DNA of 64,000 nucleotides, taken from the NCBI RefSeq assembly GCF_026684035.1, contig NZ_CP113361.1, positions 2,356,001 to 2,420,000 of the forward strand, given 5' to 3'. The translations under genes and the position numbers were made by a program. Position 1 is the stretch's first letter. Each line of letters opens with the position of its first letter. Below are positions 16,635 to 52,945 of the stretch, piece after piece. The DNA comes from Methanogenium organophilum. GTDB taxonomy: Archaea; Halobacteriota; Methanomicrobia; Methanomicrobiales; Methanomicrobiaceae. The notes under the pieces are model-generated. The model was not told the DNA's origin and did no database searches. It saw only the letters and a program-made list of their open reading frames with translations.

Positions 16635-16641
16635 AAAAAAA
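16635..16641 (-). terminator. U-tract after archaellin 1
   Basis: Just after the archaellin 1 stop the minus strand reads seven Ts, followed by further T-rich sequence. It may cause partial termination and so a higher level of archaellin 1 than archaellin 2. Confidence 0.4.
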
Positions 16642-16643
16642 GA

Positions 16644-17222
16644 TTAGTAGAGAAGATTTACTGAGTTAATCTTTGCAGGGATGGTCCTCTTCAGACCAAA
16701 CGCTGCACCTACAGACGGACGAATCTCAAGGTTGAATTCCTCGTTTTCAGTCAGTTCATCGGTTGGGTGTGCAAGAATTGTGAACTTATCCTGGTCTTCA
16801 AGCAGTAAATCTGTCCCAGTAACGCCATCGGTAATGTTCCATTCCTTATCAGTACCAGAAAGTGCATCCGTGTGTCCTGAAGTTGCATTCAGAATCTCAA
16901 CAGTATCTTCGGTTGCAAATACCATCTGTACGGTTGAGAAATCAACGGGTGATCCACCAGCAGACAGGCCGACAGTAAAGCGGATGGTGTCCACACCAGT
17001 TGCTGTATCTGCAGCCAGACCATACACATCACCAATCACTTCCAGGTTGGATGATGCCATCTCAACACTGGTATAAACAACTTCCTGAGATTTCTGTGTG
17101 GTGAAGAAACCTGCACCCAAGACCACGTATGAGAACACAGCGGCAACGACCACAAATGCAATGAGCACAATTGCAGCCTCAAGACCGGTGAACCCTTCAT
17201 CACGGTTCATAATTTTCAGCAT
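16644..17222 (-). CDS. arlB: Archaellin 1 (filament subunit)
   Basis: A 192-residue archaellin with a class III signal peptide (cleavage expected after NRDEG) and the conserved hydrophobic helix FTGLEAAIVLIAFVVVAA. I chose the ATG at 17222 because an AAAGGAGG ribosome site lies a few bases upstream; the longer frame from 17246 would place that site inside the gene. It is the first gene of the archaellum run and has a clear TATA box upstream. The segment around residues 100-135 differs from archaellin 2, while the N-terminal 75 residues are almost the same. Confidence 0.95.
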   Translation of the reverse strand: MLKIMNRDEGFTGLEAAIVLIAFVVVAAVFSYVVLGAGFFTTQKSQEVVYTSVEMASSNLEVIGDVYGLAADTATGVDTIRFTVGLSAGGSPVDFSTVQMVFATEDTVEILNATSGHTDALSGTDKEWNITDGVTGTDLLLEDQDKFTILAHPTDELTENEEFNLEIRPSVGAAFGLKRTIPAKINSVNLLY

Positions 17223-37451: not shown

Positions 37452-37655
37452 ATGGAGATTTTGAATGACAATCCGCGATGTGATTTTTGCGAGAAGAAAG
37501 CGATCGGCATGCAGATACTCGGATGCTGTAAACAGGAAGTCTGTGAAGACCATGCGGAAGAGATGCTGCTTGAAATGAAACCCGGTGAGCGGAAGGACTG
37601 GGGGGCGTGTTATTATGTGCGGTACGATGATTTGAACGATTCCGGTGGGGAATGA
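37452..37655 (+). CDS. Small Cys-rich zinc-finger-like protein (paralogue 1)
   Basis: A 67-residue protein with CDFC, CC and C-x-x-H groups (RCDFCEKKAIGMQILGCC, then VCEDHAEEML), consistent with a single treble-clef zinc site. It has no other domain. The ATG at 37452 lies beside a GGGTATAAG stretch. It is more than half identical to the next small gene, so the two arose by tandem duplication. It is divergent from uvrA; function unknown. Confidence 0.75.
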   Translation: MEILNDNPRCDFCEKKAIGMQILGCCKQEVCEDHAEEMLLEMKPGERKDWGACYYVRYDDLNDSGGE

Positions 37656-37818
37656 TTGGGATAAATAAGAGGTCATGTCTATCCCCTTACGGAGGGATGA
37701 ACCGGTATTCCTGCCGGGGATTCTCACACTCGACCTATGGGCTGTATTTTCCATGATTATGACCGCAATCAGGGAGAAAAATAGAGGTATGTACATTAAA
37801 TATTGAGAAAGTAAATTG

Positions 37819-38007
37819 ATGTACATGAACAGCACCGCTACGAATTTAAGGTGTGATTTTTGCGAGAAGAAGGCAATTGGCATGCAGATCCTGGGTTGCG
37901 TTACCCAAAATGTCTGTGAAGACCATGCGGAAGATATGCTGGTTGCAATGAAACCCGGTGAGCGGAAGGACTGGGGAGAATGCTATTTTATACGATATGC
38001 TGAGTAA
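37819..38007 (+). CDS. Small Cys-rich zinc-finger-like protein (paralogue 2)
   Basis: A 62-residue paralogue of the preceding small protein, keeping RCDFCEKKAIGMQILGC, VCEDHAEDML and KPGERKDWGECYF. The upstream 160 bases are not shared, so only the gene was duplicated or the spacer has diverged. ATG at 37825 is an alternative start. Its last 11 bases overlap the start of the DNA glycosylase gene, which suggests co-expression and perhaps a role around DNA repair (inference). Confidence 0.75.
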   Translation: MYMNSTATNLRCDFCEKKAIGMQILGCVTQNVCEDHAEDMLVAMKPGERKDWGECYFIRYAE

Positions 38008-38557
38008 CCAATCCCTGGTGATTGATTATTCCGCGTCAGGGCTTGCACCGGTTTCTGGTTCAGGTCCTTCTGTTTTGATTCTGGGCAGTTATCCGAGCGA
38101 GCAGTCGTTGCAGCGGCAGGAATACTACGGTAATCCCCGGAATCAGTTCTGGAAGATTATGGGAATGGTGTTCTCATTTCCATTTGAGTACCCGGAGTTG
38201 CCCTATCATGAGCGGCTGAATTATCTGACCAGAGAGGGCATTGCCATCTGGGATGTGGTTGAATCCTGTTCACGAAAACGTAGCAGTGACAGTTCGATAT
38301 GTGACGTGACACCCAATGATATTCGCGGGTTTTTGAGAGAGCATCCCACCATCCGGTGCATTGCCTTAAACGGGAAAACGGGTGCCGGACACTGGTTTAA
38401 GCGGTATTTTTCTGATGTTGGGGAACCGGAAAACAAAGACACTGATTTTGTTATTTTACAGCTCCCCTCCACCTCTCCGGCGTATGCGGGGATGAGTCTT
38501 GATGATAAGGCAGAATTGTGGCGGGGGATATTGCCGTTTTGTGTGAGTTCAAAATGA
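37997..38557 (+). CDS. Family 6 uracil-DNA-glycosylase-fold hypoxanthine-DNA glycosylase
   Basis: Members of UDG family 6 remove hypoxanthine, made by adenine deamination, from DNA. The 186-residue protein has the N-terminal motif LGSYPSEQSL with EYYGNPRNQFW, the middle IAIWDVV segment, and the C-terminal LPSTSPAYAGM loop, all typical. The ATG at 37997 overlaps the end of the zinc-finger gene; no stronger start is seen. It lies near uvrABC, so this part of the window is a DNA-repair neighbourhood. Confidence 0.87.
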   Translation: MLSNQSLVIDYSASGLAPVSGSGPSVLILGSYPSEQSLQRQEYYGNPRNQFWKIMGMVFSFPFEYPELPYHERLNYLTREGIAIWDVVESCSRKRSSDSSICDVTPNDIRGFLREHPTIRCIALNGKTGAGHWFKRYFSDVGEPENKDTDFVILQLPSTSPAYAGMSLDDKAELWRGILPFCVSSK

Positions 38558-38997: not shown

Positions 38998-39579
38998 CTA
39001 AAACAGCTCCATGAGCGAGAATATGAAGGCTATCGTGAGAGGCAGAATGATAATCACTGCAATAAATATCACAATGACCAGCAGCGTCCCGATGATTATC
39101 TTGTCCTCTTCTGTTTCCTGTGTCATGATTTTGGTGCAAATCGAATGAATTGCCGATTCAATCATCGTCGGACGGTCATCATCGGCACAGAATCTGGATA
39201 TAAGGGCATGGAATATCAAAAAACCAAACGAGATGATGAATACCATCAACAGGACCGGAGAGTAGAGCTTGTCGGTCAGGGTCTGGATTGTTACGGCCGA
39301 ATCAAGAAACAGGTACCCGAAATAGAGAACGGCGAGAGCGAAAACTGCCGTTGTGTATTGGCGATATTTTATCAACAGAAATGCAAGTGAACCCGCACCG
39401 ATTGCTTCGAGGAATAAGTATAGTCCTGCCGGGGGTCCGGCGAGTCTTATTCCGAAAATAAAGGCTTCCCAGTTTATAATAAAGACAAAAATATGGATCA
39501 GAAAGGACAGGAGAAGGATTGCTATAAGGCCATACTTCAGTAAAACATCAATATTTTTTAAGACTCGTTTTATTTCCAT
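38998..39579 (-). CDS. Five-helix membrane protein (paralogue of next gene's N-terminus)
   Basis: A 193-residue integral membrane protein with about five helices (near 16-35, 50-70, 77-96, 108-127, 160-188). The first 125 residues closely match the N-terminus of the 545-residue protein encoded at 39840-41477, including NWEAFIFGIRL, AGSLAFLLIKYR and DSAVTIQTLTDKLYSP. It lacks the propeller of that protein. It is preceded by a copy of the island's shared promoter-like element. Function unknown. Confidence 0.8.
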   Translation of the reverse strand: MEIKRVLKNIDVLLKYGLIAILLLSFLIHIFVFIINWEAFIFGIRLAGPPAGLYLFLEAIGAGSLAFLLIKYRQYTTAVFALAVLYFGYLFLDSAVTIQTLTDKLYSPVLLMVFIISFGFLIFHALISRFCADDDRPTMIESAIHSICTKIMTQETEEDKIIIGTLLVIVIFIAVIIILPLTIAFIFSLMELF

Positions 39580-39630: not shown

Positions 39631-39670
39631 GTATACATTAGTACGTTCGTCGAATATTCAGCAATCGGAT
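39631..39670 (-). promoter_or_regulatory. Island element A (shared promoter-like element)
   Basis: This copy reads gtatacattag, then tacg, TTCGTCGAA, then tattcag on the plus strand; it acts toward the minus-strand gene that starts 52 bases away. A TTCG-N-CGAA dyad and a GAATATTC palindrome are its core. Confidence 0.7.
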
Positions 39671-39839
39671 AATATTCCCGCGTTTGGTGGAGATAAATTG
39701 GGAAATGGTGATATGAGTGAGATATGAATATCTGCATGTCTCTTTGATTTGGATTAGAGGGCCCGCCCCATCATCCCGGTAAAAATATTCAGAACCATTC
39801 CATCGAAATGAAAAGGGAGAGGATACTCATTGCACCTTA

Positions 39840-41477
39840 CTATTCTGCAGTACTGGCAACAAGGTATCCGCCGTCTGATGTCGGATTCACCGAAGTAATT
39901 TTGAACAAATTCTCCAGATCCATCGGGTGACGAATAACAAGAACGGTCTCAGTTCCATCCCGGGAGTGTACATATAACTCTGTCTTGCCTACTGCACATT
40001 TTTTTGTGTCGAACGTCAGATCAGGTGCGGTTTCATGACTGAATGAGTCCGGGCCGGGGGGGAGCACCTCCTCACTAATGATATTTCCCTCATGATCGAG
40101 CGTATACCTTCTCTCACCTTCTCCGCGGAGATACACATCTGTTGTTCCGTCATACCGGGGCTGTATTGAATAGACCACTCCGTCGTCCTTCTCGACGAAT
40201 TTCTGCTTCCAGAGATAATTTCCCTGAAGATCAAGAGCCGCGATCACGTTTCCGCTCTCATTGGGATCATCGCATTCTGCATAACAGTTCACCAGCAGGT
40301 TTCCCTCCGGTGATACTACTGCTCTCCCGCAATGTGTGAAGTCATTCTCTTTCTTCTCCCATGCGGTATTCCCTTCCCCGTCTGCACAGAGTATCCATCC
40401 GTCAGACCCCTCTTCATTTATTTCTCCGGTCAATACGTATCCACCGTCGGGTAAGGCCAGGCCGTTATTTATCTGTGTATGAGGATAATAGCGGTGCCAC
40501 CACACATTTCCCTGTCCATCCAGCCGGAGAACAATTCCATCAAGCATGACCACCGTATACTCTCCTGCTGTTGGAAGGAGATCCCTGATCACACTGAGAT
40601 CTGTTTCAGGATAATCGGAAGTGTCCCGGCGTATATCCCAGACGGGACGACCGTAACGATCGAGTTTCATTACCCGGAGACTCGGTTCTGTCTGCCCGGC
40701 ATACTCGAACATGCCGGCTATAACGCCGCACCCGCCATCTTCTGACGGACATGCATAGAGGTTCATCACACTGCGTCCATTCACAAGGGCCTGCCATTCT
40801 GTGGCTCCTCCTTCGTTGATTTTTGTTAACAATGTATCCCCGGTGTAATCTGGAACTGATGGAGATGCAACGGCGTGCGTACCGGAGAAAAACATCGAAA
40901 ACAGGGGCATTACCAGTAAAAATAAAAATACAATGGCAAATGCCGCCACCATCAGAATCACTATTTGTTTGACTGTATGATCATCTGATTTTTTTGTCTC
41001 GGTTGTGAATGAAGTCGTTTCGATTTTCGATTCATTCATCGATTCACGTGTAGATTCACTTATCAGTGTATCATGACCACCATTCCCGAATCTGGCTGAG
41101 AGGATATGAATAATCAAAAAGAGAAGGGAGATGATGAATAACACCAACAGGAGGGGAGAGTAGAGATTGTCGGTCAGTGTCTGTATTGTTACGGCCGAAT
41201 CAACAAAGGTGTAACCGAAGTAGATAACGGCGAGAACGGCAACAGCAAGAGTGTAACGGCGATATTTTATAAGGAGAAACGCAAGCGAACCGGCAATCAT
41301 TCCTTGGAGGAGCAAGTACATCCCGGCCGGCGCGCCATTGAGTTTCACCCCGAAAAAATAGGCTTCCCAGTTGATCGTAAAGACAAAAATAAAGATCAGA
41401 AAGGACAGGAGAAGGATCGCGACGAGGACATATCTGAATACTGTATCTAAGTTTTTTAGGATTTGTTTCGTTTCCAT
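39840..41477 (-). CDS. Membrane protein with five helices fused to an extracellular beta-propeller
   Basis: The 545-residue protein has four helices in its first 130 residues, paralogous to the 193-residue neighbour, then a charged loop, a fifth helix (about 163-190), and a large outer domain (about 210-545) of PQQ/Trp-docking-type propeller repeats (DGQGNVWWHRYY, DGEGNTAWEKKE, DLQGNYLWKQKF). I chose the ATG at 41477 with a GGAG site upstream; the longer frame from 41537 would cross the shared element. It may sense or bind surface ligands. Confidence 0.8.
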   Translation of the reverse strand: METKQILKNLDTVFRYVLVAILLLSFLIFIFVFTINWEAYFFGVKLNGAPAGMYLLLQGMIAGSLAFLLIKYRRYTLAVAVLAVIYFGYTFVDSAVTIQTLTDNLYSPLLLVLFIISLLFLIIHILSARFGNGGHDTLISESTRESMNESKIETTSFTTETKKSDDHTVKQIVILMVAAFAIVFLFLLVMPLFSMFFSGTHAVASPSVPDYTGDTLLTKINEGGATEWQALVNGRSVMNLYACPSEDGGCGVIAGMFEYAGQTEPSLRVMKLDRYGRPVWDIRRDTSDYPETDLSVIRDLLPTAGEYTVVMLDGIVLRLDGQGNVWWHRYYPHTQINNGLALPDGGYVLTGEINEEGSDGWILCADGEGNTAWEKKENDFTHCGRAVVSPEGNLLVNCYAECDDPNESGNVIAALDLQGNYLWKQKFVEKDDGVVYSIQPRYDGTTDVYLRGEGERRYTLDHEGNIISEEVLPPGPDSFSHETAPDLTFDTKKCAVGKTELYVHSRDGTETVLVIRHPMDLENLFKITSVNPTSDGGYLVASTAE

Positions 41478-41529
41478 CGTGTTTTCTCCATCCTGCTTAT
41501 TAACGGATACAGAATGTTCGTCCCTTCTG

Positions 41530-41570
41530 GTATACATTAGTACGTTCGCCGAATATTCAGTGATCGGATG
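41530..41570 (-). promoter_or_regulatory. Island element B
   Basis: It carries gtatacattag, TTCGCCGAA and tattcagtgatcgg, 53 bases before the start of the propeller gene, almost the same distance as in copy A. About 45 bases of leader between element and gene are also shared with copy A. Confidence 0.72.
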
Positions 41571-41668
41571 AACAGATAATTACATGAAGAGGAGCACTTT
41601 TGTCGCTCACATCATTTTGTAACAGAAAACTGTATCGTGAAAAAAAGGTGGGGATAAAACTCAATCTC

Positions 41669-41895
41669 TTATGCAATACATATGGAGAAGGGGGACATCA
41701 CTCCTCCAGACAACAGGTACTGCCCGTCGGCAATGAGGTCATACAACACTCTGCTGAGTTCGGCTCCGTTGTAAAAAATATTAGATCTCTGTATATCAAT
41801 CGAGATACCGACGATGATTGCCGTTTCGACTGATTCTAGCTAACCACTTGCAAAGGACGAGAATAATCCCGATATCCATGGCATTCAGAATCTGA
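41669..41895 (-). pseudogene. Decayed 3' fragment of a UbiA-family gene (copy B)
   Basis: The sequence matches the last 220 bases or so of the intact UbiA gene at 47425-48324, but has substitutions, small length changes and an internal stop. It sits upstream of element B exactly as the intact gene sits upstream of element D, so it is a relic of the same duplicated block. It is the oldest-looking of the two broken copies. Confidence 0.75.
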
Positions 41896-42043
41896 GATTT
41901 GTAAAGGTCATAACAGCTGGTTTATCCATATTTATTAGCTTATTGAATTCCATTTGGGACCTTTCATTTTGATACCAAGACTAATTGATTTGAGAAAAAT
42001 TGCGTTGCGAACCCTATTTTTACTGAGATTGATGGCGATAGTA

Positions 42044-42697
42044 TCAATCGCAACGTTCACAATCCAATTTCCCTACCGAACCCTCACGAGTCGCATACAG
42101 ACTGGCATCGTTAATGAGAGAATGTACCCGTTCTTCAGAATACCGAAGGGAGGCATCATCCAGATAGCCATAATACAGGATAAAATAATCCTCTGAGGAA
42201 GAGATGAATGGACGTTCTGCAACAATAAAATATCCCTGGAAAGTATCCGTTGAGTATGCGGTAGCAGAGAGGGTATACTCATAACCATCAGGTGTTTTCA
42301 TGTGAAGGAGCACAGGTATGATACTACCGTGAGAGGAAAGATAATTACATAACTCACATTGAGCCTGCAGGAAATTATCAAAATCCTCAAAATAACAGGA
42401 TTCTGTCATTAGCCTGGCCCTGGTTGCAGTATCACGGTATTCAGTATGTGAACATAGGCCATTTTGGTCAGATATAAATGGAAAATCGGTAGATTCCTCA
42501 ACACCGAGGAGATAAATTGAGCTATTTTCAATTGATTTGATGTCTGAGCCCGGGATAAACCAGTCTTTTCTGATATCGGGAGGAGGGAGGCCGGGACCAA
42601 CTGGCAATACTACAAAAATCAGGAATAAACAAACGATAACAATACCGGATACCGCTGCAATTATCGCGAAATGCTTTTTTTGAAGATGCCGATCCAT
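42044..42697 (-). CDS. Membrane-anchored protein of unknown function
   Basis: A 217-residue protein with one N-terminal helix (about 10-32) and an outer domain with several cysteines (NGLCSHTEYRD, ESCYFEDF, QCELCNYL, and a final DCERCD). The cysteines fit an extracellular, disulfide-bonded domain. I chose the ATG at 42697 because the upstream extension has no ribosome site. It has no island element; a TATA-like GACTATAAAAAC lies near 42757-42772. Confidence 0.72.
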   Translation of the reverse strand: MDRHLQKKHFAIIAAVSGIVIVCLFLIFVVLPVGPGLPPPDIRKDWFIPGSDIKSIENSSIYLLGVEESTDFPFISDQNGLCSHTEYRDTATRARLMTESCYFEDFDNFLQAQCELCNYLSSHGSIIPVLLHMKTPDGYEYTLSATAYSTDTFQGYFIVAERPFISSSEDYFILYYGYLDDASLRYSEERVHSLINDASLYATREGSVGKLDCERCD

Positions 42698-43299
42698 ATC
42701 AAACACCAGACAGGGAGATATTATGGGTTGACCCATGTGGCCGTGGTTCCCCACAAGTTTTTATAGTCAGTAGTGGGCTGAATAACTAATAGATATTCCT
42801 CCCCACGTATCACATGTATTACATACTGTATTGAAAACTCACTATATCCAGCACAGGTGATACTATTTTCCATGAAGCTGGAAATTCCCTCTGCCTGTGC
42901 CTACATGAAGCATACTATTAACGAATGGCTTTTGCGAATTTACTGTATTCTTGATTTTTCCCAATTCAGGCATCCTGTAGTATAATAATCAGGTGTTTTT
43001 GCGTTTTTTCACTGCTGAATCGAATACTAATACTCAGGAATAAACTGGGAAAAATACCCCTTGCATGGGAGTATCAAAACGGCCATTGTGTGTATATTCA
43101 TAATAGGTAACAACGAGGAGAACTACTGCAAGAGCAAATAATAGTTACCTATTAACGGCAGATAATTACGAATCATATTCATCAGAAAAATAAATTATTC
43201 AAATATAATTATACTGGTGTGGTAATCGTGTATCGATGCAATTTTCCTTAATACCGGCATTCTATAGCAGTTCGTCTTCAAAACGCGTTTCATCTGTGT
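42698..43299. other. Gene-free region (about 600 bp) with a lost gene body
   Basis: No supported gene. It lies downstream of a decayed signal-peptide start at 43370, where the body of a secreted-protein gene would be expected. No recognisable coding remains were seen. Confidence 0.5.
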
Positions 43300-43370
43300 G
43301 CTTACTGCGGGCATAAATGCAACACTCTCCAGCAGCACGGAGAGTGTCTGCATTCCAGTTCTTTTTCCAT
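43300..43370 (-). pseudogene. Decayed signal-peptide start of a secreted-protein gene
   Basis: From the ATG at 43370 the minus strand matches the first 60 bases or so of the secreted-protein gene at 50921-51856, but frameshifts turn the hydrophobic leader into a Cys/His-rich sequence that stops after 22 codons. Upstream it keeps the full 150-nt leader and element C. It is a third, broken member of the same precursor family. Confidence 0.72.
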
Positions 43371-43521
43371 ATGTTTACCTCCGTTTTATCAGGAGGTAAA
43401 CCATGAAATCAGCTCCAAATACTATCGAAGGCAATGAGTTTTGCCTCCGTGCAGTGCGGGGTTCATATGACTGTGTGAAATGAGGTGAACTCCCGACTAC
43501 AATTTATCGTTGTATCTTCAG
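43371..43521 (-). promoter_or_regulatory. Structured leader, copy C, with perfect 10-bp hairpin over the ribosome site
   Basis: The leader matches copies D and G at most positions. Here the ribosome-binding sequence is part of a perfect inverted repeat, GTTTACCTCC (43373-43382) with GGAGGTAAAC (43392-43401), nine bases apart. The stem would bury the GGAGG site. Confidence 0.65.
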
Positions 43522-43561
43522 GTATACATTAGTTCGTTCGCCGAATATTCAGTGATCGGAT
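43522..43561 (-). promoter_or_regulatory. Island element C
   Basis: It carries gtatacattag, TTCGCCGAA and tattcagtgatcgg, 152 bases before the decayed start at 43370. The same spacing is seen for copies D and G. Confidence 0.72.
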
Positions 43562-43669
43562 GAATGTATACCAACACGGAAAAAACGCATTTTTGCTGCT
43601 TAAACGAGTTGCAGAACAGACAATGGGATCCGGGAAAAATAATTGGAGAGTGGGTAGAACCCTGTTTTC

Positions 43670-43948
43670 TTATGCAATACATACAGTAGAGATGTACATC
43701 ACTCCTCCAAGGAGCAGATACTGCCCGTCTGCTATGAGGTCATACAACACTCTGCTGAGTTCGGCTCCGTTGAACAAAATAATATAACTCTGTACATAAA
43801 TCGCGATACCGGCAATGATTGCCGTTTCGACAATTGAGAGATATCCGTTGCAAAGAACGAGAATAATCCCGATACCCATGGCGTTCATTACTGACAGAAG
43901 GATTCTGGTCTTCTGTATCCCAAGGATCACAGGGATGGTCTTTACGCC
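43670..43948 (-). pseudogene. 3' fragment of a UbiA-family gene (copy C)
   Basis: About 280 bases nearly identical to the 3' end of the intact UbiA gene, keeping the frame and stop; the encoded 93 residues match its C-terminus from TIPVILGI onward. Homology ends at about 43948, ten bases from the end of the CcdA-fusion gene, which marks a recombination joint. The fragment has no catalytic DxxxD motif, so it should be inactive. Confidence 0.82.
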
Positions 43949-43957
43949 CAACCGGAT

Positions 43958-44962
43958 TTACATCCAAAATAGCAACCAGAACCCAAACCCAATCAGGATA
44001 ATCCCACTAACAGCTTTAATTACATTCCTGTGTTCTCTAATTTTGTTCGACGAGCTATATCCCCCGATGATCCCGACTCCAATAAATGGCGTGAGCACTC
44101 CGGCCCCAAAGACCAGTAAGAGTGACAAATCCTGTACCGTGCCATCAATTAGGATTTTGCTCAGCAATATGAGTATCATTGGTGCCGCACATGGAGCCTT
44201 GACGATTGAAAACAACATACCCAGAAAGAATAAACCAGCCAGAGTGGCAGAATACTTCCGAACAGAGGATTGAATAAAGGTGTTTGTGTCAATAGGAATT
44301 CTTAACAACCCAATAAGGTTTACCCCAACAAGTATCGTGATTACCCCTGCCACGATAGTGAGGCATGGACCGAAACCACCGAGCGACATTCCCGCGAGCA
44401 GGACGCAACTCCCCATAAAGATATACGCGGCAACCAGCCCCAGGCCGAATGTCAGTGAATTTAGTATACTATTTCTCAATCCCTTGCCCGAACCTGTGAC
44501 ATATGCCAGTATAAATCCCAATATTGCCATCAAGCAGGGCGAGAAACCGGAAAAAAGCCCGAATGAATACGCAAGCGGGATGTCCCAGTCTATATCAGAA
44601 GGAATTTCCCCCCTATCAGTTTCTGAAAGAGCACGCTCAATTGCTGCCCTGATGTTTTCTTCGGTGATTTCCTCTTTGGGAATTTTTATGGTGCCGTTCA
44701 CAACCACGGCCGGGACTTCGAGAAATCCATGTGGTTTCCATCTTTCCCATCCTTCCAGAGTACCGGTGTCGATCCATTCGATAGTCAGGGTACCGTCATA
44801 GGCATTTTCCAGATCTGCAATCAGTGGATCGGTAATCTTGCAGTCCGAGCATCGATCCATATGATAGTATTCAAGGAAAATCGTTGAGGCACCAACTGTG
44901 GAAATGCACAGTATGCAAATGATGAATAGAATGGCAATTATATGTGGTACTTTTACGGTCAT
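43958..44962 (-). CDS. Thioredoxin-CcdA fusion (extracellular thiol redox protein)
   Basis: The 334-residue protein has an N-terminal signal or anchor helix, a thioredoxin-like domain with active-site Cys38-Ser-Asp-Cys41 and the cis-proline region FLEVPAVVV, then a CcdA/DsbD-type membrane domain with the paired cysteines in FSPCLMAI and KAPCAAPM. Such proteins carry electrons across the membrane to reduce or reshuffle disulfides outside. It is the last gene of the run starting with the Cys-rich precursor at 47125, so handling of that precursor's 12 C-terminal cysteines is its likely task (inference). Confidence 0.85.
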   Translation of the reverse strand: MTVKVPHIIAILFIICILCISTVGASTIFLEYYHMDRCSDCKITDPLIADLENAYDGTLTIEWIDTGTLEGWERWKPHGFLEVPAVVVNGTIKIPKEEITEENIRAAIERALSETDRGEIPSDIDWDIPLAYSFGLFSGFSPCLMAILGFILAYVTGSGKGLRNSILNSLTFGLGLVAAYIFMGSCVLLAGMSLGGFGPCLTIVAGVITILVGVNLIGLLRIPIDTNTFIQSSVRKYSATLAGLFFLGMLFSIVKAPCAAPMILILLSKILIDGTVQDLSLLLVFGAGVLTPFIGVGIIGGYSSSNKIREHRNVIKAVSGIILIGFGFWLLFWM

Positions 44963-45039
44963 GATTTTACCGACCTCCAGAGAGCCGTGCAGATCGTATC
45001 ATTCACCCTCAGCACAATCCACAAACCATCCATCGGCCA

Positions 45040-45663
45040 TCAGTCCATTTCATTCCGTGCAAACCGTTTTTCCCACATTAATAGGACAACAATGGAAACA
45101 ATCCCGACGAGTATGAGTCCTCCAAGGATGGGGATAACGGGATACTCTAGTATCAGATAGCGCAGAAGAATTATTGCGGATACTATGAAGTAGAAGACAA
45201 CCCATCGCACGAGATTAACACGATATTTACCACGTTCGATAAAGATAATACGCGTCAATAGTATGCCGATGATAACAAGGGCGAGGAACCAGAAGATCTG
45301 GTTGACGGAAGATACGAGGGATGCATAGAGATATATCAAAAAAACCGCGACGACAAGAACGGCATCGACCACCTTCTCAATGACGGCTCTTCTCTGCTTT
45401 GTATCTTTTTCTCCGTGTCCCTCCAGTTGAAGGGCGTGACGGAGGATATTCGTGATGGTGGGGTCAGCCAGATGTTCCTTTCGTCTATACCACACCATGA
45501 GAAGAAAGTGCGTTGCAGTGGGAACCAATGCCAGGAGGAATATGGAAGATAGTGGTAACGGCAGGTACCCCTTCACGACGAGGATGCCGATAACAAGAAA
45601 TGATACAAAATACACTGCAACTGAACGCCACATTTCCTCTTTGATGATATAATCTATTTTCAT
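45040..45663 (-). CDS. Six-helix membrane protein, candidate immunity factor
   Basis: A 207-residue integral membrane protein with about six helices and a cytoplasmic charged loop (about 60-92). I do not recognise a family. It overlaps the LolA-like lipoprotein gene by four bases and precedes the thioredoxin-CcdA gene by 77. Small polytopic proteins beside secreted peptide precursors often give self-protection, so an immunity role is possible but unproved. Confidence 0.72.
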   Translation of the reverse strand: MKIDYIIKEEMWRSVAVYFVSFLVIGILVVKGYLPLPLSSIFLLALVPTATHFLLMVWYRRKEHLADPTITNILRHALQLEGHGEKDTKQRRAVIEKVVDAVLVVAVFLIYLYASLVSSVNQIFWFLALVIIGILLTRIIFIERGKYRVNLVRWVVFYFIVSAIILLRYLILEYPVIPILGGLILVGIVSIVVLLMWEKRFARNEMD

Positions 45664-46328
45664 ATGTACACCTCAGACGCACCATAGGGGACGGTAAAAG
45701 AAAACTCGTCATCGTTTGTTATGGAATTTATAGAGTAATTTCGATATTCGAGGGATAATACCAAATTGCCCTCATAGTAACTCTGCAGTTTCAACGGGAT
45801 CAAATTATTTGAATCGATCCATACAAGGTACTCCCTTGCACTCCCGTTGTCCAGCTCATGAGGAATCAGTTTCACTCTATAGACCTGAGTTGAGTTGATC
45901 GATTCCATTTCTGGATCTTCTATGGTGTATTTTTCAGTAATGTTAGTCATAAATGTATAGATCGCAGGCTCCGGTATCTTCTCTGATGGAGTCTGATTCC
46001 TTATCAGCACAACATTTTTGATAGGATCATAGATTCGGATTTCTTCTCCATTTGAAACGATCTCCGAGTGTGTGAAGGAGCCGCTCCTCTCAATCCTTCG
46101 GAACTTATCCGGCTTCTTCAAACGTACATCATACTCAACAGTTCTCGTTTCATTCCCGATGTACATAGTAAGTGTTTCGATGTACGCTAAGCTCTCGATG
46201 TTTTGCTGACTCTCTGTAACTTTTTCCAGAAGCGTATTTGCATCAATATCTGAATCCATACAACCAGAACAAATAAACGCAAATACTACGATAATCAACA
46301 TGAATTGGGTGTGCCATTGTAACTTCAT
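45660..46328 (-). CDS. LolA/RseB-like lipoprotein
   Basis: A 222-residue lipoprotein with lipobox ICSGC (Cys at about 23) and a beta-rich domain of the LolA/LppX/RseB fold type (LAYIETLTMYIGNETRTVEYDVRLKKPDKFRR; YLVWIDSNNLIPLKLQSYYEG). Such domains bind lipids or hydrophobic molecules outside the membrane. It follows the Cys-rich precursor by 35 bases, so it could carry or hold the hydrophobic product. Confidence 0.8.
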   Translation of the reverse strand: MKLQWHTQFMLIIVVFAFICSGCMDSDIDANTLLEKVTESQQNIESLAYIETLTMYIGNETRTVEYDVRLKKPDKFRRIERSGSFTHSEIVSNGEEIRIYDPIKNVVLIRNQTPSEKIPEPAIYTFMTNITEKYTIEDPEMESINSTQVYRVKLIPHELDNGSAREYLVWIDSNNLIPLKLQSYYEGNLVLSLEYRNYSINSITNDDEFSFTVPYGASEVYI

Positions 46329-46363
46329 CTAATCCACCGTAAAAAAGAAGGTATTTGCCTCAT

Positions 46364-47125
46364 TTATAGGCAAGTTCCCATACACCACGCTATCTCTACC
46401 CCCATACAAACCGCAGCAGGTGCACAGGTATACGGGCTTGGCATATAATAGCAGGGTGTCAACAACGCTACACATATGTCGCAGATTGGAATTCCTGGTG
46501 GGCAGGGGATTCCCAGAATCGCACAGAGACAATCCCCAATGATGCAACTGGAAACACAGTCCCAGTAACCATCTTCTTCTGTTGCGAAGAACTGTTCTGG
46601 CATTCCTTCAGCCAAGGCACCGCCATCGATTATAATTTCTTCAATTACGTCTCCATTGCTGTCGATTCTGCTAAACGTAAGTTTATTCAGGGATTTGTCC
46701 TGATACGTACTTGTGTACTTGAGTACCCGAGCCCCATCATTGTCCCATACTGCAATAACATTCGACGTCTGAATGGAGTCGCCATTGTCGATAATAGATT
46801 CAACGGGCAATACGACAGCAGTTATCTGTTTAACTGATCCATCGTCATACTTCTTCTCGAGAGAAAATGCCTTGGCGTTGTCGACGATCATACTCAGATC
46901 TTCGGAACGCGGGATTCCCGAAAGTTTTCGCACATCGTTCAGATTCAAAGCAGAAGCAACAGCCTCGTACTTTTCCAAGCCCGATAGATCGGTTTGCCCC
47001 ATCTTTTGTTTGACATCGCCACAAGATGTACCAGGTACACAAGCCATTGCCGGCACCATCACCATGCTGACCAGCAGTAACGCCAGCAGCACAGACAGTA
47101 ACCGGGTTCTGAATTTCATTTTCAT
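46364..47125 (-). CDS. Secreted halocin C8-like precursor with Cys-rich C-terminus
   Basis: The 253-residue protein has a signal peptide (MKMKFRTRLLSVLLALLL, ending near AMA), an N-terminal domain (about 30-180) and a C-terminal 67-residue segment (187-253) with 12 cysteines, short hydrophobic runs and an LCAILGI stretch like the ICGLLGI of halocin C8. Halocin C8 is cut from the C-terminus of a precursor whose N-terminal part gives immunity; the same layout is likely here. ATG at 47125 has GGAGG seven bases upstream. It heads the operon with the LolA-like, six-helix and thioredoxin-CcdA genes. Confidence 0.7.
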   Translation of the reverse strand: MKMKFRTRLLSVLLALLLVSMVMVPAMACVPGTSCGDVKQKMGQTDLSGLEKYEAVASALNLNDVRKLSGIPRSEDLSMIVDNAKAFSLEKKYDDGSVKQITAVVLPVESIIDNGDSIQTSNVIAVWDNDGARVLKYTSTYQDKSLNKLTFSRIDSNGDVIEEIIIDGGALAEGMPEQFFATEEDGYWDCVSSCIIGDCLCAILGIPCPPGIPICDICVALLTPCYYMPSPYTCAPAAVCMGVEIAWCMGTCL

Positions 47126-47280
47126 ACTTTTTCCTCCGTTTTTCGAACCGGAGGTAAACCATGACAACAGCCTCAAATAGTATTGAAACCAATGAAGTTT
47201 TGCCTCCGGGCAGTGCGGGGTTCATCTGACTGTGTGAAAGGAGGTGAACTCCCGACTACAATTAACTCTCATCTTTTTTA
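47126..47280 (-). promoter_or_regulatory. Structured leader, copy D, ribosome site in a hairpin
   Basis: The GGAGG site of the precursor gene can pair with CCTCC upstream (CCTCCG at 47133-47138 and CGGAGG at 47149-47154 on the plus strand). A second GGAGG/CCTCC pair lies farther up (47203-47207 with 47240-47246), so alternative pairings are possible. About 85-90% of positions look shared with copy G by eye. Confidence 0.65.
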
Positions 47281-47320
47281 GTATACATTAGTTCGTTCGC
47301 CGAATATTCAGTAATCTGAT
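47281..47320 (-). promoter_or_regulatory. Island element D
   Basis: It carries gtatacattag, TTCGCCGAA and tattcagtaatctg, 155 bases before the halocin C8-like precursor gene. Confidence 0.72.
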
Positions 47321-47424
47321 GTATGTATACTGACACGGAAAGCAACGCTCTTTTGCGGCTCATACGATTTTCAGAACAAATAATAGAATCCTGTGAAATA
47401 AGAAACGGGTTTTAGCCCCGCCCC

Positions 47425-48324
47425 TTATGCAATACATACGGTGGAGATGTACATCACTCCTCCAAGGAGCAGATACTGCCCGTCGGCAATGAGGTCATAC
47501 AGCACTCTGCTGAGTTCGGCTCCGTTGAACAAAATAATATAACTCTGTACATAAATCGCGATACCGGCAATGATTGCCGTTTCGACAATTGAGAGATATC
47601 CGTTGCAAAGAACGAGAATTATCCCGATACCCATGGCGTTCATTACTGACAGAAGGATTCTGGTCCACGGAATTCCAAGGATCACAGGGATAGTCTGCAC
47701 GCCTGTCTCGGCGTCGCCCCGTACATCCCGTATGTCAAATACCGTTGAATCGATAAATGACAGGAGAAAGAAGAAGAGCCCCATTGCAATTGTCATCTCC
47801 CCAAGGGGAATTCCTGCGCATGCAACCGGCAGAAGTGCGACCGGAAGCGCCCAGGCAAGTCCCACAATGAAGTTTTTCACAAAGGGGATGTCCTTCAGGC
47901 GACGGTACCTGAACCTGTCGGGCAGAAACGGTATGCTGTATAAAATTCCGTTTACGAGGGGTATGGCGGTGATTACCGCTGCCATAATCCCGTACATCCC
48001 TGCTATCAGAAATGCAACAACGTATGCGGCAAGGGATAAATACATAAGACTGTTTATATGTTTTTTCGTGAACGCATAACGTTTGGAATGGTTGATTGCA
48101 TCTTCATCCTCGTCTGTTTTCCTGTTCAGGTTGTATACCGAAAAGGTGACAAGGAACATGATAACGCATGACGCCGGAGATACCGGTATGTCCTGTAGCA
48201 CAGAAGACAGGTAAACCATTGAAACGGCGGCAATGCAGAGATACAAAGAGCTGTACAAAATTGTATCAAACAATGACTGAAGATTCAGCTCACTGTTTCC
48301 GGGGGTATGCTCGAATTTGAACAT
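47425..48324 (-). CDS. UbiA-family membrane prenyltransferase
   Basis: UbiA enzymes transfer polyprenyl groups to aromatic or polar acceptors in the membrane. The 299-residue protein has about eight helices and both Asp-rich motifs, NLNRKTDEDED (about 66-76) and DIRDVRGDAETG (about 197-208). The acceptor cannot be told from sequence. It has its own copy of the island element 25 bases upstream, and its 3' end has been copied twice elsewhere in the island. Confidence 0.88.
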   Translation of the reverse strand: MFKFEHTPGNSELNLQSLFDTILYSSLYLCIAAVSMVYLSSVLQDIPVSPASCVIMFLVTFSVYNLNRKTDEDEDAINHSKRYAFTKKHINSLMYLSLAAYVVAFLIAGMYGIMAAVITAIPLVNGILYSIPFLPDRFRYRRLKDIPFVKNFIVGLAWALPVALLPVACAGIPLGEMTIAMGLFFFLLSFIDSTVFDIRDVRGDAETGVQTIPVILGIPWTRILLSVMNAMGIGIILVLCNGYLSIVETAIIAGIAIYVQSYIILFNGAELSRVLYDLIADGQYLLLGGVMYISTVCIA

Positions 48325-48348
48325 ACATTACCATGGTTACAGGTAATT

Positions 48349-48386
48349 GACATTAGTTCGTTCGCCGAATGTTAAGTTATCTGACT
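48349..48386 (-). promoter_or_regulatory. Island element E
   Basis: A more diverged copy: cattag, TTCGCCGAA, then tgttaagttatctg, only about 25 bases before the UbiA gene start. The dyad core is intact while the outer parts have drifted. Confidence 0.62.
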
Positions 48387-48779
48387 AATATAAAGAATGC
48401 CCTCGTGAGAGTCAGAAAAAATCCCTTTTGAGTATTTGCAGGGGTATATGAGGCTGAATACTTTTGATATGTCCTGATGATATGAAAAGAGGTACTCACC
48501 GATGTAATGGCTGGACTGTTTCAGGGCTGATAAGGTCATTTGTAATAGTATATCCGTGATTTGTCAAAATCATCCAATGACATTCTCATCTGAATCTTCT
48601 TTGACCAAATCTTTGTTATTTAGATAATTCTGTGAAAAGAACAGCAGGCAAATTCCGGCTGAAAGAAGAGGAGGGAGTTTACAACCTTGCTGCGATAGGC
48701 ATTGTGCATATCAACGTGCAAATCGAAATACCGGACCCTTCAGAATCCATATCGACCATCCCTGCACGATACGAAGCGT
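48387..48779. other. Gene-free region (393 bp)
   Basis: No supported gene or RNA seen. It holds the 3' side of the propeller lipoprotein gene and sequence upstream of element E. Confidence 0.45.
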
Positions 48780-49916
48780 TCAGAAATAAATCGAATTTCC
48801 GAAGATAGCAAATCCGCCGTCTGCCGTCTGAATGATTGATGTAACGTATCGATCATTCCCGATATTAAACGATTTATCCCATGTGACCGCCCCGTCATTG
48901 TCAAGCTTGACGACCTGGAGGGGAGTGCCGCGATGGCCGGACTCATGCAGTTGGTTATATTTTGGGTTAGAATATCCGGCATATGCATATCCGCCGTCTT
49001 CAGTCGCGACGATGAATGGGGAGGCCTGCACGGGCCGTTCCGCGATCAGTTCGCCTTTTGCAGAGAGGGATACTTCGGTTGTCTCCGTGAAAAAACTATA
49101 TTCCGGGCCCCTGGTAATAACCTGTTCGGTAGCATAGATGAGGTCATATGTGCCTGCGGGGGAGAGACGGACGATATAGAGGCGGGTAAGTAATTCGTTC
49201 GAAAACGTCCTGTTCCATACGCGGTCTCCTTCGGCATTGAGTTGGGCGACCCACGCACCGGCGTCGCAGGTTCCTCCGGTGACAAAGCCTCCCGCGGGTG
49301 CTGTGATTATCGTTCGGGCACTCTTGTCCGGAGCAAATGCGGTCTCCCAGAGGGTCATTCCATTCTCGTCAAGTCTGACGGACTGATTGTTCCCCACTAC
49401 AGCATATCCGCCGTTCGGTGCCCTGACCAGCACCAACCGTTCCCCCCGTTCGCTTTCGTCATCGATTGATGTGTTCCAGAGGGTATTTCCCCTTACATCC
49501 ATCCGTGTCAGAACTCCCGAATGTCCGGCGACGACATACCCGCCGCCCGGAGCCTCGACAAGTGATTCACCCCATTCCAGTGTTGTATCAATGGCGATAT
49601 CTGATACCGCCTCACCCCCTGCATCAAAGGTAAAAATGCGGGGGATGAGACCCTCTGTGCCTGCGACTGCGTACCCGCCGTCAGAAGTCTGGATAATCGC
49701 TGCACCGGTTATTTTTGGGTCGCCATCAATGATCGTGGTCCACTGCTTGTTCCCGTCTGCATCGACTTTGAGGATCCAGATACCCGTTATTATATCTCCT
49801 GTGCCGTACTGTCTTTTATTGAGACATCCGGCGGTGAATAGTGTGGTTAGTATGAAAAGAACGACGATGATCACGGTGGCCGTATTCCGTATTCTTTGGT
49901 GATCCTGGCTCAGCAT
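48780..49916 (-). CDS. Beta-propeller lipoprotein
   Basis: A 378-residue lipoprotein with lipobox FTAGC (Cys at about 31) and repeated propeller motifs of the type TSDGGYAVAG, PGGGYVVAGHSG, PNGGYAVVGNN, PAGGFVTGG, EDGGYAYAG and TADGGFAIFG, giving six or more blades. It should be attached to the cell surface. The N-terminus precedes the lipobox by a normal signal peptide. Element F lies 23 bases upstream. The repeats resemble those of the membrane-propeller fusion protein at 39840-41477. Confidence 0.82.
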   Translation of the reverse strand: MLSQDHQRIRNTATVIIVVLFILTTLFTAGCLNKRQYGTGDIITGIWILKVDADGNKQWTTIIDGDPKITGAAIIQTSDGGYAVAGTEGLIPRIFTFDAGGEAVSDIAIDTTLEWGESLVEAPGGGYVVAGHSGVLTRMDVRGNTLWNTSIDDESERGERLVLVRAPNGGYAVVGNNQSVRLDENGMTLWETAFAPDKSARTIITAPAGGFVTGGTCDAGAWVAQLNAEGDRVWNRTFSNELLTRLYIVRLSPAGTYDLIYATEQVITRGPEYSFFTETTEVSLSAKGELIAERPVQASPFIVATEDGGYAYAGYSNPKYNQLHESGHRGTPLQVVKLDNDGAVTWDKSFNIGNDRYVTSIIQTADGGFAIFGNSIYF

Positions 49917-49938
49917 ACTCTAAATTCTTGTTCTTTTG

Positions 49939-49978
49939 GTATACATTAGTACGTTTGATGAATATTCGGTGATCTGAG
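49939..49978 (-). promoter_or_regulatory. Island element F
   Basis: It reads gtatacattag, then TTTGATGAA, then tattcggtgatctg, 23 bases before the propeller lipoprotein gene. The dyad core is changed from TTCG-N-CGAA and imperfect here. Confidence 0.66.
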
Positions 49979-50546
49979 GAATATGTGGGCGTTCGGATTG
50001 AGATGACGTGAGGTGATGAACAGTATCTGGGAGGGGCATGTGATAATCCTCTTTGCCCTTGTGGTTCTGATGACGGTTTGAAAATCTTTCTATGGCCTTT
50101 GTGATTAATGGATCTCTTCAAAAAAAAGGCTGGCCGGGTTTTAATATGATAATATCTCCCGGGTGAAGTTACATTGTAAAAATACCTGTCAGGATCGTAT
50201 GTCCTGGTTTGAATTATTGGACAATTTCGTGAACTTTTGATGGGATATTGTTTAACTGTCAAATTCATTTTCCCGACGAAATTATGGAAAATTTGGATCA
50301 CGTTAGTGAATAGTATTCTAAGGTGGTTCAGCACAAAGTGGCAATGTATTGTCAGTACATCTGTGTTGATGTACGACTGTCGATTTTTCGGGGATTTCCA
50401 CCATACCAGCCGAACACCGGCTCTTTGCGGCTGTACTGCTCACAGATGAAGAGAATGGGTTTTCTGCCCGGACCGGATGGGACTGTTCTCCGGATTTATA
50501 AAAATCGAATGTCCGATGAGGGTATTTTTGAACAGTTATTTGTTCA
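49979..50546. other. Gene-free region (568 bp)
   Basis: I see no supported gene. Two short plus-strand open frames at 50237-50550 have no ribosome site and no protein likeness. No copy of the island element is present. Confidence 0.45.
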
Positions 50547-50870
50547 TTAAGATAATTGTCTCCCTATTTTTCGGGCAATGATATTATATATCTCTGCAAG
50601 AAGGAACCCAACAATACTACTAATGACGATGACTGCACCAAGGCACCCGATAATGGTATAGATGTTGAAGAACTGAAAAAACCCTGCATATTCTTTCGGA
50701 AGGAATATCATATTCCCTCTGATGATGAAATAATACAATAAAAAACCGCAAACAGACAAAATAATAGCAATACCGGAGACAATTCCGGTGAACATTTTTA
50801 CAAATGAAAACGTATCGATTTGAGAGATTTCAACAGAATCTGTGTTGGTTACCTGTTCCTGTTTTTCCAT
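50547..50870 (-). CDS. Small membrane protein downstream of secreted precursor, candidate immunity factor
   Basis: A 107-residue protein with two strong helices (about 28-50 and 70-95) and charged ends. No family recognised. It lies 50 bases after the secreted-protein gene at 50921-51856 in the same direction, so it should share the element G transcript. Its size and place fit an immunity or chaperone protein for the secreted product, which is inference. Confidence 0.68.
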   Translation of the reverse strand: MEKQEQVTNTDSVEISQIDTFSFVKMFTGIVSGIAIILSVCGFLLYYFIIRGNMIFLPKEYAGFFQFFNIYTIIGCLGAVIVISSIVGFLLAEIYNIIARKIGRQLS

Positions 50871-50920: not shown

Positions 50921-51856
50921 TTATGAAATATATGTCCATCCTGTATCGGTGAAATATGTCTGTACAGGAGGGAAATATAACGGCCCAACTTCTGCGATGT
51001 GGCCACCTGTTGTCTTATAATTACCCGACGAAAGAACTGTGTATGCGAAACCGGCCTTCATTTCATATACATTGCAGCCATCCTTATAATCAAGGGCATA
51101 TGTTATTCCATTGTCTTTTTCCAAATCAGATGCAACGGACATGTAAGGAATTGTATACCAGGGATTTGGAAGCCAAACTCTGCTATATGATTCAAAATCC
51201 ACAGTCATTGAAAATAATCTCTGGTTAAGAGACGATTCGGGATGCACAACAATAAAAGGCAGACCGTCCAATAATTGTTGTTCTTCCGTTTGGTCGTTCG
51301 TGGATAAACCAGTATTCTGATCCTCTGAGCATATGAATGGCTGTTGGTAAATAAACTGTTTTGTGCTTTCAGACATACCATTTAATGCATCTGGAAAAAC
51401 GTTTTCAAGAAATTCTCCGGTTGTAATATGTTCACCCTTAAGTTCATTGTATACCTTCAGTTGCTCTTCACTTGCAGTAAATGAATGTCCTTGCTTCACA
51501 TCGTCTCTGGATATTTCTTTAATTTCATATTTTACCGTCGTTGGAATATACTCATTATTTTGTCCTTTCATCATTTGAGATGTCGAAGATAAATCCGCAG
51601 TATATCCAATTTTAGATAATTTCAACAGTGTTGAATCAATTTTCTCTACAGATTGCATTATTTTTTGATGGTCTTGCACGGATACGGCCTGATTGTAGTC
51701 AATAACTTGTTCATCAAGAAGTTCAGTCAATGACGTTTTTATGATTTCTGTGTCATTACTCTCTTGCTGCGCACTCCCCGCCGACACCATCACCACGCTC
51801 ACCAGCAGCAACGCCAGGAGCACGGAGAGTGCCCGCATTTCAATTCTTTTTTTCAT
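50921..51856 (-). CDS. Secreted protein sharing leader and signal peptide with the halocin C8-like precursor
   Basis: The 311-residue protein has a signal peptide almost the same as that of the precursor at 46364-47125 (SVLLALLLVS core) but an unrelated mature part: a helical Gln/Glu/Ser-rich N-terminal half and a beta-rich C-terminal part (VWLPNPWYTIPYMSV, GFAYTVLSSGNYKTTGGHIAEVG). It has only a few cysteines and no Cys-rich tail. The ATG at 51856 has GGAGG seven bases upstream inside a hairpin. Function unknown; a secreted effector is a reasonable guess. Confidence 0.78.
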   Translation of the reverse strand: MKKRIEMRALSVLLALLLVSVVMVSAGSAQQESNDTEIIKTSLTELLDEQVIDYNQAVSVQDHQKIMQSVEKIDSTLLKLSKIGYTADLSSTSQMMKGQNNEYIPTTVKYEIKEISRDDVKQGHSFTASEEQLKVYNELKGEHITTGEFLENVFPDALNGMSESTKQFIYQQPFICSEDQNTGLSTNDQTEEQQLLDGLPFIVVHPESSLNQRLFSMTVDFESYSRVWLPNPWYTIPYMSVASDLEKDNGITYALDYKDGCNVYEMKAGFAYTVLSSGNYKTTGGHIAEVGPLYFPPVQTYFTDTGWTYIS

Positions 51857-52010
51857 ACTTTTTCCTCCGTTTTTCGAACCGGAGGTAAACTATGACAGCA
51901 GCTACAAATACTATCGAAGCCAATGAAGTTTTGCCTCCGGGCAGTGCGGGTTCATCTGACTGTGTGAAATGAGGTGAACTCCCGACTACAATTTACTCTC
52001 GTCTCTTCTG
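51857..52010 (-). promoter_or_regulatory. Structured leader, copy G, ribosome site in a hairpin
   Basis: Same layout as copy D: CCTCCG (51864-51869) can pair with CGGAGG (51880-51885), hiding the ribosome site; a second GGAGG/CCTCC pair lies upstream. A small open frame from a TTG after the first GGAGG is also shared with copy D. Confidence 0.65.
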
Positions 52011-52071
52011 GTATACATTAGTACGTTTGCCAAATATTCAGTAGATTGAAGAATATTCAGTGATCTGCTGA
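52011..52071 (-). promoter_or_regulatory. Island element G, with a repeated outer half
   Basis: It reads gtatacattag, then TTTGCCAAA, then tattcag, and the tattcag part is repeated 21 bases farther out before tgatctg. Compared with the other copies both arms of the dyad changed together (TTCG/CGAA to TTTG/CAAA). It lies 155 bases before the secreted-protein gene. Confidence 0.7.
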
Positions 52072-52129: not shown

Positions 52130-52945
52130 TCAGATGATGGTAAATTCTTCTGATATTTCCCGGTAATACGAAAAGAGACGATCACCCCATGCAAGGGCCG
52201 GACTGTCAGTGGCGATGAGGTCGCTTGAGATATCGTACTTGAAATCATCATTCCTGCACAGCCCGAATGAGAGGGTTGCATTGGTCACCGTCAACCCGAT
52301 ATAAAGAGGCATGGGCGCCACATATACCCTGAAGTGATTATAGCCTTCAATCTCTTTGATCTTACTCAGAAACGGTTCTTTCCTGAGTTCTTCAGCGATC
52401 TCTGAGTTCACCACCATCTCCACATGTACTCCTTCCTTCACCTTCGTAATGAGGGCATCTGCATGGTTGTGGCTCATGAAAGAGGAGACGACAGATATCC
52501 GTTCGGCATCTGCAATCATCTCGAAAAAACACTCAAGGACGGAAAAAATATCGGTATTGCTGGTTTCGACAATCGTGGAATTATAGAGGTCGCCGATGTC
52601 ACGCAGGAACGGGGCAGGAAGTACTTCAAGATAATGTGTGGACCAGAATTTTGGATTTTTACTGAAAAGGTATCCTGCTCTGATATGATCCTGTACCTGT
52701 GATGAAATGACCTTTCCCTGAGGGGTCAGATAATAGGCGTCGTCACGGTAGTGAATATAGTGTACTCCCTCCAGAAACCGAATCTTTGGAAGGAGTGTCT
52801 GTGAAGTAGTGTCGGTCACATCACGAAGTTTTGCGAGAGTTTTGCCTCCCTCACTCAATGAGATCATGATCTGCAAAAGCAGCCGTGACCTGAACAGCTT
52901 CTGGATGCCATCCTGGTATGTATTGAAAATCTCAAGCGTGTCCAT
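52130..52945 (-). CDS. Winged-helix regulator with FilR1-type (DUF1724) domain
   Basis: The 271-residue protein has an N-terminal winged helix (about 10-80, RSRLLLQIMISLSEGGKTLAKLRD then TTSQTLLPKIRFLE) and a C-terminal domain of the kind found in methanogen regulators such as FilR1 (middle domain DUF1724), with SVVSSFMSHNHADALI and PLYIGLTVTNATLSFGL. It lies at the upstream edge of the island in the same direction and is a candidate regulator of the shared elements, though it has no element of its own. Confidence 0.82.
   Translation of the reverse strand: MDTLEIFNTYQDGIQKLFRSRLLLQIMISLSEGGKTLAKLRDVTDTTSQTLLPKIRFLEGVHYIHYRDDAYYLTPQGKVISSQVQDHIRAGYLFSKNPKFWSTHYLEVLPAPFLRDIGDLYNSTIVETSNTDIFSVLECFFEMIADAERISVVSSFMSHNHADALITKVKEGVHVEMVVNSEIAEELRKEPFLSKIKEIEGYNHFRVYVAPMPLYIGLTVTNATLSFGLCRNDDFKYDISSDLIATDSPALAWGDRLFSYYREISEEFTII

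Follow-up and report, generated by a model that had tools for sequence, protein, structure and literature searches.

Gene ends shared at a repeated operator-promoter element suggest how Methanogenium organophilum gathers secreted-protein genes under one regulator

A stretch of 64,000 nucleotides (nt) of the Methanogenium organophilum genome (NCBI RefSeq assembly GCF_026684035.1, contig NZ_CP113361.1, positions 2,356,001 to 2,420,000 of the forward strand; the whole stretch is called the window below), whose nearest named relatives are Methanogenium, carries an island of genes for a FilR1-family regulator, a UbiA-family prenyltransferase and various secreted and membrane proteins, with copies of one short element among them. 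This element is a palindrome (AATATTCAG...CTGAATATT) followed by a TATA-like box, roughly 50 nt in all, and has 12 copies in the genome, each shortly ahead of a gene on the same strand (7 in the window, 4 within 4 kb in locus L002 and 1 in L001; a control search with the pattern written backwards gave 0 matches). Our principal finding is that the parts upstream and downstream of the element are freely combined: the predicted operator moves as one piece with the 3' end of the gene before it, the genes attached downstream vary, and the triplication of the UbiA 3' end in the island is one case of this rule. Such joins at a shared switch suggest how this archaeon gathers secreted-protein genes under one regulator. 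Built on the observed anatomy, flank classes, edges, comparisons with orthologues and co-occurrence, the explanation that we favour, and hold to be probable, is that homologous recombination at the repeated operator-promoter recruits cargo genes for secreted and membrane proteins into one regulon.

Gene ends and joints at the element

An earlier note on this DNA had described the UbiA 3' end, a spacer and the island element as present three times, intact, as a clean fragment and as a decayed one, and pairwise alignment agrees with it in coordinates and identities, the clean fragment being 97% identical. In a self-comparison of the window, 43329-43948 matches 47083-47703 at 84.8% over 627 columns, 41530-41887 matches 47281-47642 at 77.4% (E 2e-73), and 41524-41887 matches 43516-43887 at 77.2% (E 6e-73). 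The alignment gives the joints and disposes of the objection that the likeness might be one of low complexity, block B being an open frame of 93 amino acids (aa) whose last 78 residues are identical to those of UbiA; block C has 62% identity to UbiA as protein, with one in-frame TAG. Throughout the 2.65-Mb genome the UbiA 3' end is encoded at these three places only, the sole other match being a distant paralogue of 28% identity; the count of three is thus complete for the gene end but not for the element with its 12 copies. The joint that had been placed ten bases from the CcdA stop is also found there, B beginning at about 43948 and the stop codon occupying 43958-43960, and in L043, from another Methanogenium, the CcdA homology to the window likewise ends, at 43955. 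The likeness of A and B runs past the element, through the 5' untranslated region and into a broken precursor leader, to about 43329; that of block C to A and B ends at the element, after which C enters a different gene.

The features are listed from high to low coordinates, since every gene of the block lies on the minus strand. Letters A to D, F and U denote element copies or blocks, G004 and G005 relatives' genomes and L0xx the loci compared; each element is a putative operator-promoter, and TM stands for transmembrane.

52130..52945, minus: FilR1-family regulator, intact, 271 aa (Pfam FilR1_middle 1.5e-22, HVO_A0261_N 2.7e-5; adjoins UbiA in 13/13 non-Methanogenium loci)
52011..52064, minus: element D, then leader type P and precursor 2
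50921..51856, minus: precursor 2, secreted protein with the shared signal peptide (cargo)
50547..50870, minus: orf107, small membrane protein (cargo; 88% nt identity to part of L043, Methanogenium sp. MK-MG)
49961..50210, minus: flank X, common to the element at L002:6598 (85%)
49939..49981, minus: element ahead of PQQ378 (homology with the cariaci locus L037 begins at 49981)
48780..49916, minus: PQQ378, propeller-like lipoprotein (cargo; the name is our reading; 91.9% nt identity to M. cariaci, other locus)
48376..48547, minus: FilR1 3'-end relic adjoining UbiA's own promoter (65% over 179 columns, E 5e-13; 72.5% over 91 columns in self-comparison)
48346..48390, minus: element U, of UbiA (related site ahead of UbiA in 13 loci outside the genus)
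47425..48324, minus: block A, intact UbiA-family prenyltransferase, 299 aa (Pfam UbiA 3.2e-21)
47281..47326, minus: element A
46364..47125, minus: precursor 1, Cys-rich C-terminus (cargo; in 1/28 family genomes)
45660-46328, minus: LolA-like protein (cargo)
45040-45663, minus: orf207 (cargo)
43958-44962, minus: CcdA/DsbD fusion (cargo; in 3/28 family genomes)
43669..43948, minus: block B, UbiA 3' fragment
43522..43572, minus: element B
43329..43511, minus: leader type P and broken precursor start
42044..42754, minus: g42044, secreted protein, family not assigned (cargo of unit B)
41668..41899, minus: block C, decayed UbiA 3' fragment (one TAG, small indels)
41530..41572, minus: element C (G005 UbiA-TM junction matched on both sides)
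39840..41537, minus: TMPQQ565, chimeric, with about 150 aa of TM(F) type at the N-terminus and a propeller part that resembles L001:9265-10935; the listed open reading frame begins within the promoter, and the ATG at 41477 (residue 21) is the likely start
39631..39674, minus: element F
38998..39579, minus: TM(F), orthologous to the genes that follow UbiA in G005 and the element in G004

When the 420 nt upstream of all 12 element copies were compared, 11/12 had a flank in common with another copy. The UbiA 3' end precedes three (A, B and C), flank X two, and no shared flank one (F); the FilR1 3' end precedes six, namely D beside the intact gene, UbiA's own promoter, the copy in L001 and three in L002, one of which adjoins a decayed FilR1 paralogue. 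UbiA is therefore not special. Downstream stand a leader and precursor (A, B, D and two in L002), the TM gene (C and F), UbiA, or others. The edges of the matches fall at the element. Counting from the downstream end of the GTATAC box (position 0), pairs that differ upstream and agree downstream begin to match at -53 to -40 in 7/7 cases, and pairs that agree upstream and differ downstream cease to match at +5 to +25 in 8/10, these pairs being of our choosing and overlapping, so that independent events are fewer than pairs. The two sides of element A have discordant histories, its upstream sister being B and its downstream sister D: in the downstream module A agrees with D against B at 14 sites and with B against D at 1.

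The regulator, the relatives' loci and the age of the blocks

Outside the genus, the FilR1-family regulator and UbiA are adjacent in all 13 loci (Methanoculleus, Methanoregula and others; order swapped in three), and a related site stands ahead of UbiA next to FilR1 across genera, as judged by eye in 17 aligned upstream regions, 13 of them from outside the genus. Within the genus 4/7 genomes have UbiA and the identical four carry FilR1; they hold 12, 4, 2 and 2 elements, and the other three genomes 0, 0 and 1, the single one being the G004 site with 3 mismatches. The site ahead of UbiA in other genera and the co-occurrence of FilR1, UbiA and element suggest that the element, for which promoter activity is predicted, is likely the operator that FilR1 would bind and the promoter of UbiA. 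The regulator belongs to the FilR1 family by PF08350 (80.4 bits, cut-off 27), its N-terminal winged-helix domain is weakly indicated (PF25213, 24.4 bits, under the cut-off of 35), and its Pfam matches include no receiver domain. The UbiA domain of the prenyltransferase scores 76.2 bits (cut-off 34.2); the protein lies under every listed NCBIfam cut-off, and no substrate is therefore assigned.

In G005 and in Methanogenium sp. MK-MG the order is FilR1, element, UbiA, element in a direct row with no insert, and in G005 the TM gene comes next. Block C matches this UbiA-element-TM stretch on both sides, from -358 to +398, and C is therefore either the ancestral UbiA-TM junction itself or its copy. 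Different genes follow the second element in MK-MG and M. cariaci, whose homology to G005 ends at +5 and +12. The order in G004 is methyltransferase, FilR1 3' relic (73.6% over 110 columns, E 8e-17), element, TM gene, udg and uvrA, with the UbiA and FilR1 genes absent, and this junction appears to be the remainder expected of recombination between the two elements around UbiA, that is, the reciprocal product. The G004 genome is 82% complete, so missing genes alone are weak evidence; the junction of relic, element and TM gene is positive evidence. The cariaci genes, uvrA included, have many frameshifts, probably from assembly, and are not called broken here.

The element and PQQ378 together (window 48654-49981 against L037:1730-3071) are 91.9% identical to M. 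cariaci at another locus, against baseline nt identities between the window and that species of 82.2% for uvrA, 83.0% for UbiA, 82.5% for FilR1 and 79.1% for udg. This unit exceeds the core genes in identity by about 9 points and stands at a different locus, so it has likely moved horizontally. We also observed that the FilR1-UbiA-TM island of G005 (G005:C1:2193000-2231000, L027 and L028) is without the udg/uvrA and YkgJ/methyltransferase neighbours of the other genomes, for which reason the island or its surroundings may have moved, and that in MK-MG the first 115 nt of uvrA are repeated ahead of uvrA (L003:14520-14634, 87%), another gene-end repeat, at the border of the island.

As to the age of the blocks, A and B agree at 206/212 coding positions and at 75/111 in the spacer (Fisher p 2e-13), their longest identical run of 117 columns was reached in 0/20000 shuffles, and all 6 coding differences are protein-silent. 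Together these suggest a coding tract younger than its flanks, either through homogenisation or through copying from a functional gene. The proposal of the earlier note that the decay of the fragments gives a relative order of events is thereby weakened, since decay is then no clean clock. Spacer divergence does not differ significantly between A-B and A-C (p 0.21). A spacer segment of about 19 nt in G005 and MK-MG (14 nt in cariaci) is missing from A, B and C alike, suggesting that the copies arose after the split from G005; the spacer of C, however, is as close or closer to MK-MG (76/107) and G005 (71/104) than to A (62/105) and B (62/106), and C may have an older origin. An order of C before B is plausible, C being the more decayed. 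Identities of blocks and spacers among A, B, C and the relatives rest on one MAFFT alignment.

Weighing the explanations

In the explanation that we favour, the ancestral Methanogenium locus would have read FilR1, operator/promoter, UbiA, operator/promoter, TM gene. We presume that the FilR1-family regulator next to it targets the operator-promoter, which, because it stands at several places, would double as a stretch of homology. Exchanges between element copies, either within the element or within the neighbouring gene ends that would serve as additional homology, would join an upstream 3' end plus element to new downstream genes; inserted units of element and cargo would come to separate a gene from its own downstream promoter, with UbiA or FilR1 3' ends left behind as direct repeats, and in the relative the same exchange would have removed UbiA. 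A and B would be junctions with precursor units, C the ancestral UbiA-TM junction or its copy, and the UbiA tract of A and B would have been homogenised later. Each accepted event would put secreted or membrane proteins under the FilR1-family regulator. RadA-type homologous recombination would be the agent, and the exact order of events given here is a putative one.

Several points weigh against this explanation. Element F lacks a shared upstream flank, and two of the 10 same-upstream pairs, G4-D and U-D, end at about -20, some 20 nt before the end of the element, where old relics align poorly. FilR1's own promoter is without the element, within the pattern used, and the Pfam name FilR1 derives from a response regulator of different architecture; FilR1 binding, transcription and recombination at the element are what we infer from sequence. 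The silent differences between A and B mean that B may until recently have been functional and longer. Some edges could arise because no stretch but the element is under constraint, yet constraint alone is unlikely to have made them where intact genes lie on either side (A/D) or where flanks of 90% likeness break off abruptly (cariaci/PQQ378).

Segmental duplication with trimming, as the earlier note had it, stands in part: the duplication is confined to this lineage, the other 3 UbiA-bearing genomes of the genus having a single copy of the gene and no fragments, and the fragments have decayed unequally. What fails is the ancestral unit then proposed, UbiA plus the next precursor, copied in tandem and trimmed by independent deletions. 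In A and B the UbiA 3' end, spacer, element, leader and precursor start are indeed collinear, and the coding tract of B is protein-identical to that of A over 78 residues, as if lately functional; yet C enters the TM gene, as in G005, with no precursor, the downstream modules of A and B are not sisters, that of A being nearer to that of D, a whole-genome comparison with UbiA finds no trace of its 5' two-thirds beside B or C, and FilR1 3' ends show the same pattern, distant loci included. We have dropped the tandem unit for block C and for dating and retain it as a rival for A and B, where we regard it as unlikely. Very little credence is given to block B as a kept, expressed C-terminal UbiA peptide with a function of its own. 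Its 93-aa frame is open and every one of the 6 differences in 212 nt is silent, but the frame begins with TTG, neither element nor leader lies in front, the joint comes directly after CcdA, C is decayed, and homogenisation with A accounts for the likeness.

Cassettes inserted at gene 3' ends by a site-specific integrase or transposase, with displaced 3' fragments left behind, would agree with the position of the inserted units, which fill precisely the gap from the 3' end of a gene to the element downstream of it and are flanked by displaced 3' ends. However, no recombinase or transposase appeared in a Pfam scan of 20 proteins from the element loci and a flanking gene, two different genes are targets, the repeated ends are unequal in length and age, and the edges coincide with a promoter conserved in genera that have the plain FilR1-UbiA pair; we consider this origin quite improbable. 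It could also be supposed that the element copies arose or were kept independently as binding sites, the element presumably being under selection as an operator, and that the shared flanks are due to chance or drift. Upstream flanks of 100-400 nt match with E down to 1e-142, which makes independence impossible, and we attach next to no weight to this view.

Cargo, leader RNA and known systems

The cargo consists of precursors with a shared signal peptide, a LolA-like protein, the CcdA/DsbD fusion and propeller lipoproteins. A peptide antibiotic is a conceivable candidate function for precursor 1. This precursor may have a halocin-C8-like look, on which a literature search brought up nothing but two incidental papers.

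The precursor genes are preceded by a leader, a 5' RNA of about 155 nt with a hairpin over the Shine-Dalgarno sequence (window 47106-47257, 51837-51987 and 43352-43498, minus strand), which forms a separate sequence family. A covariance model built from 13 leaders finds it at 54 places in 14/28 family genomes and 7/9 genera, two of the 14 genomes by weak near-threshold matches only, and at 14 places in this genome; most leaders at the places read precede genes whose proteins have a conserved signal peptide in common but differ in the rest. In Rfam the 14 leader loci gave nothing at threshold (6 without a match, 8 with sub-threshold microRNA noise only). The Shine-Dalgarno hairpin is kept, with 85.0% of cells paired in 42 rows of 49 matches against 51-60% in slid versions, and 21 cells are changed on both sides, 16 of them by one C-G to U-A change that is maybe a single event. 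A translational switch is a reasonable guess for the leader. An alternative pairing of GGAGGCAAAA with TTTTGCCTCC, paired in 88.5% of cells in 13 Methanogenium rows, is not claimed, because no pair has changes on both sides and the motif is lost in other genera. Alignment A1 was reduced from 17 leaders to 13 by leaving out two that are alike barely beyond the last 30 nt and two from cariaci; alignment A3 was reduced from 49 rows to 42, the rows removed being two duplicate places, one truncated by the end of a contig, three that lack the hairpin part and L077, which has a long insertion. One set of shuffles kept base composition alone. A shortened leader without the hairpin part precedes each of two 145-aa genes (L001:5322-5759 and L071), which are near-identical and lie about 16 kb from each other. 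Elsewhere in the window, 15977-16540 and 16633-17201 form a separate tandem direct repeat (79% over 572 columns), and a small Cys-containing gene is tandemly copied (37479-37657 and 37852-38027, 80%).

Regulon growth is usually inferred from its end state. Here intermediate joints survive, the gene 3' ends beside each promoter copy would record its origin and a relative appears to hold the reciprocal deletion, by which promoter-anchored recombination becomes directly testable as a route of regulon growth in an archaeon. The case is also a warning that gene-end repeats are not to be taken as tandem gene duplication or as clocks. The searched listings of one open-licence library gave no account of the locus, of element-mediated shuffling in Methanogenium or of the leader. 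Mobile promoters are said to be short promoter regions without regulator identity. Near-identical promoter copies ahead of unrelated genes, by which they are defined, are what is found here. The likeness to promoter propagation is that copies of a promoter segment reach new places, where they capture the genes downstream; the difference is that here the segment is the predicted operator of a neighbouring regulator, brings along the 3' end of the gene before it and itself acts as the joint. Promoter propagation and mobile promoters in prokaryotes, the subject of Matus-Garcia et al. in 2012 and of later work, are cited in PMC9208149. The FilR1 protein of Methanosaeta harundinacea is described, in PMC3991700, as an archaeal DNA-binding regulator of several promoters with a receiver domain in a two-component system, and the Pfam FilR1_middle domain is common to both proteins, whereas the present regulator has no receiver domain in Pfam and its site is a predicted one. 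It is conceivable, though doubtful in our view, that the FilR1 operator-promoter is the lasting exchange site of an archaeal cassette system, in which operator, 5' leader and signal peptide would form a standard front end able to capture one secreted cargo after another, some of it from other species, as the likeness of the PQQ378 unit to M. cariaci suggests. The logic would be comparable to that of integrons, but run here by homologous recombination on the regulator's own site. Single-crossover (Campbell-type) integration and recombination between dispersed repeats yield inserts flanked by direct repeats and a reciprocal deletion product, and both features have their likeness in the locus described here. 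Unlike in these cases, however, each event would also rewire control, since the repeat is here a regulatory element.

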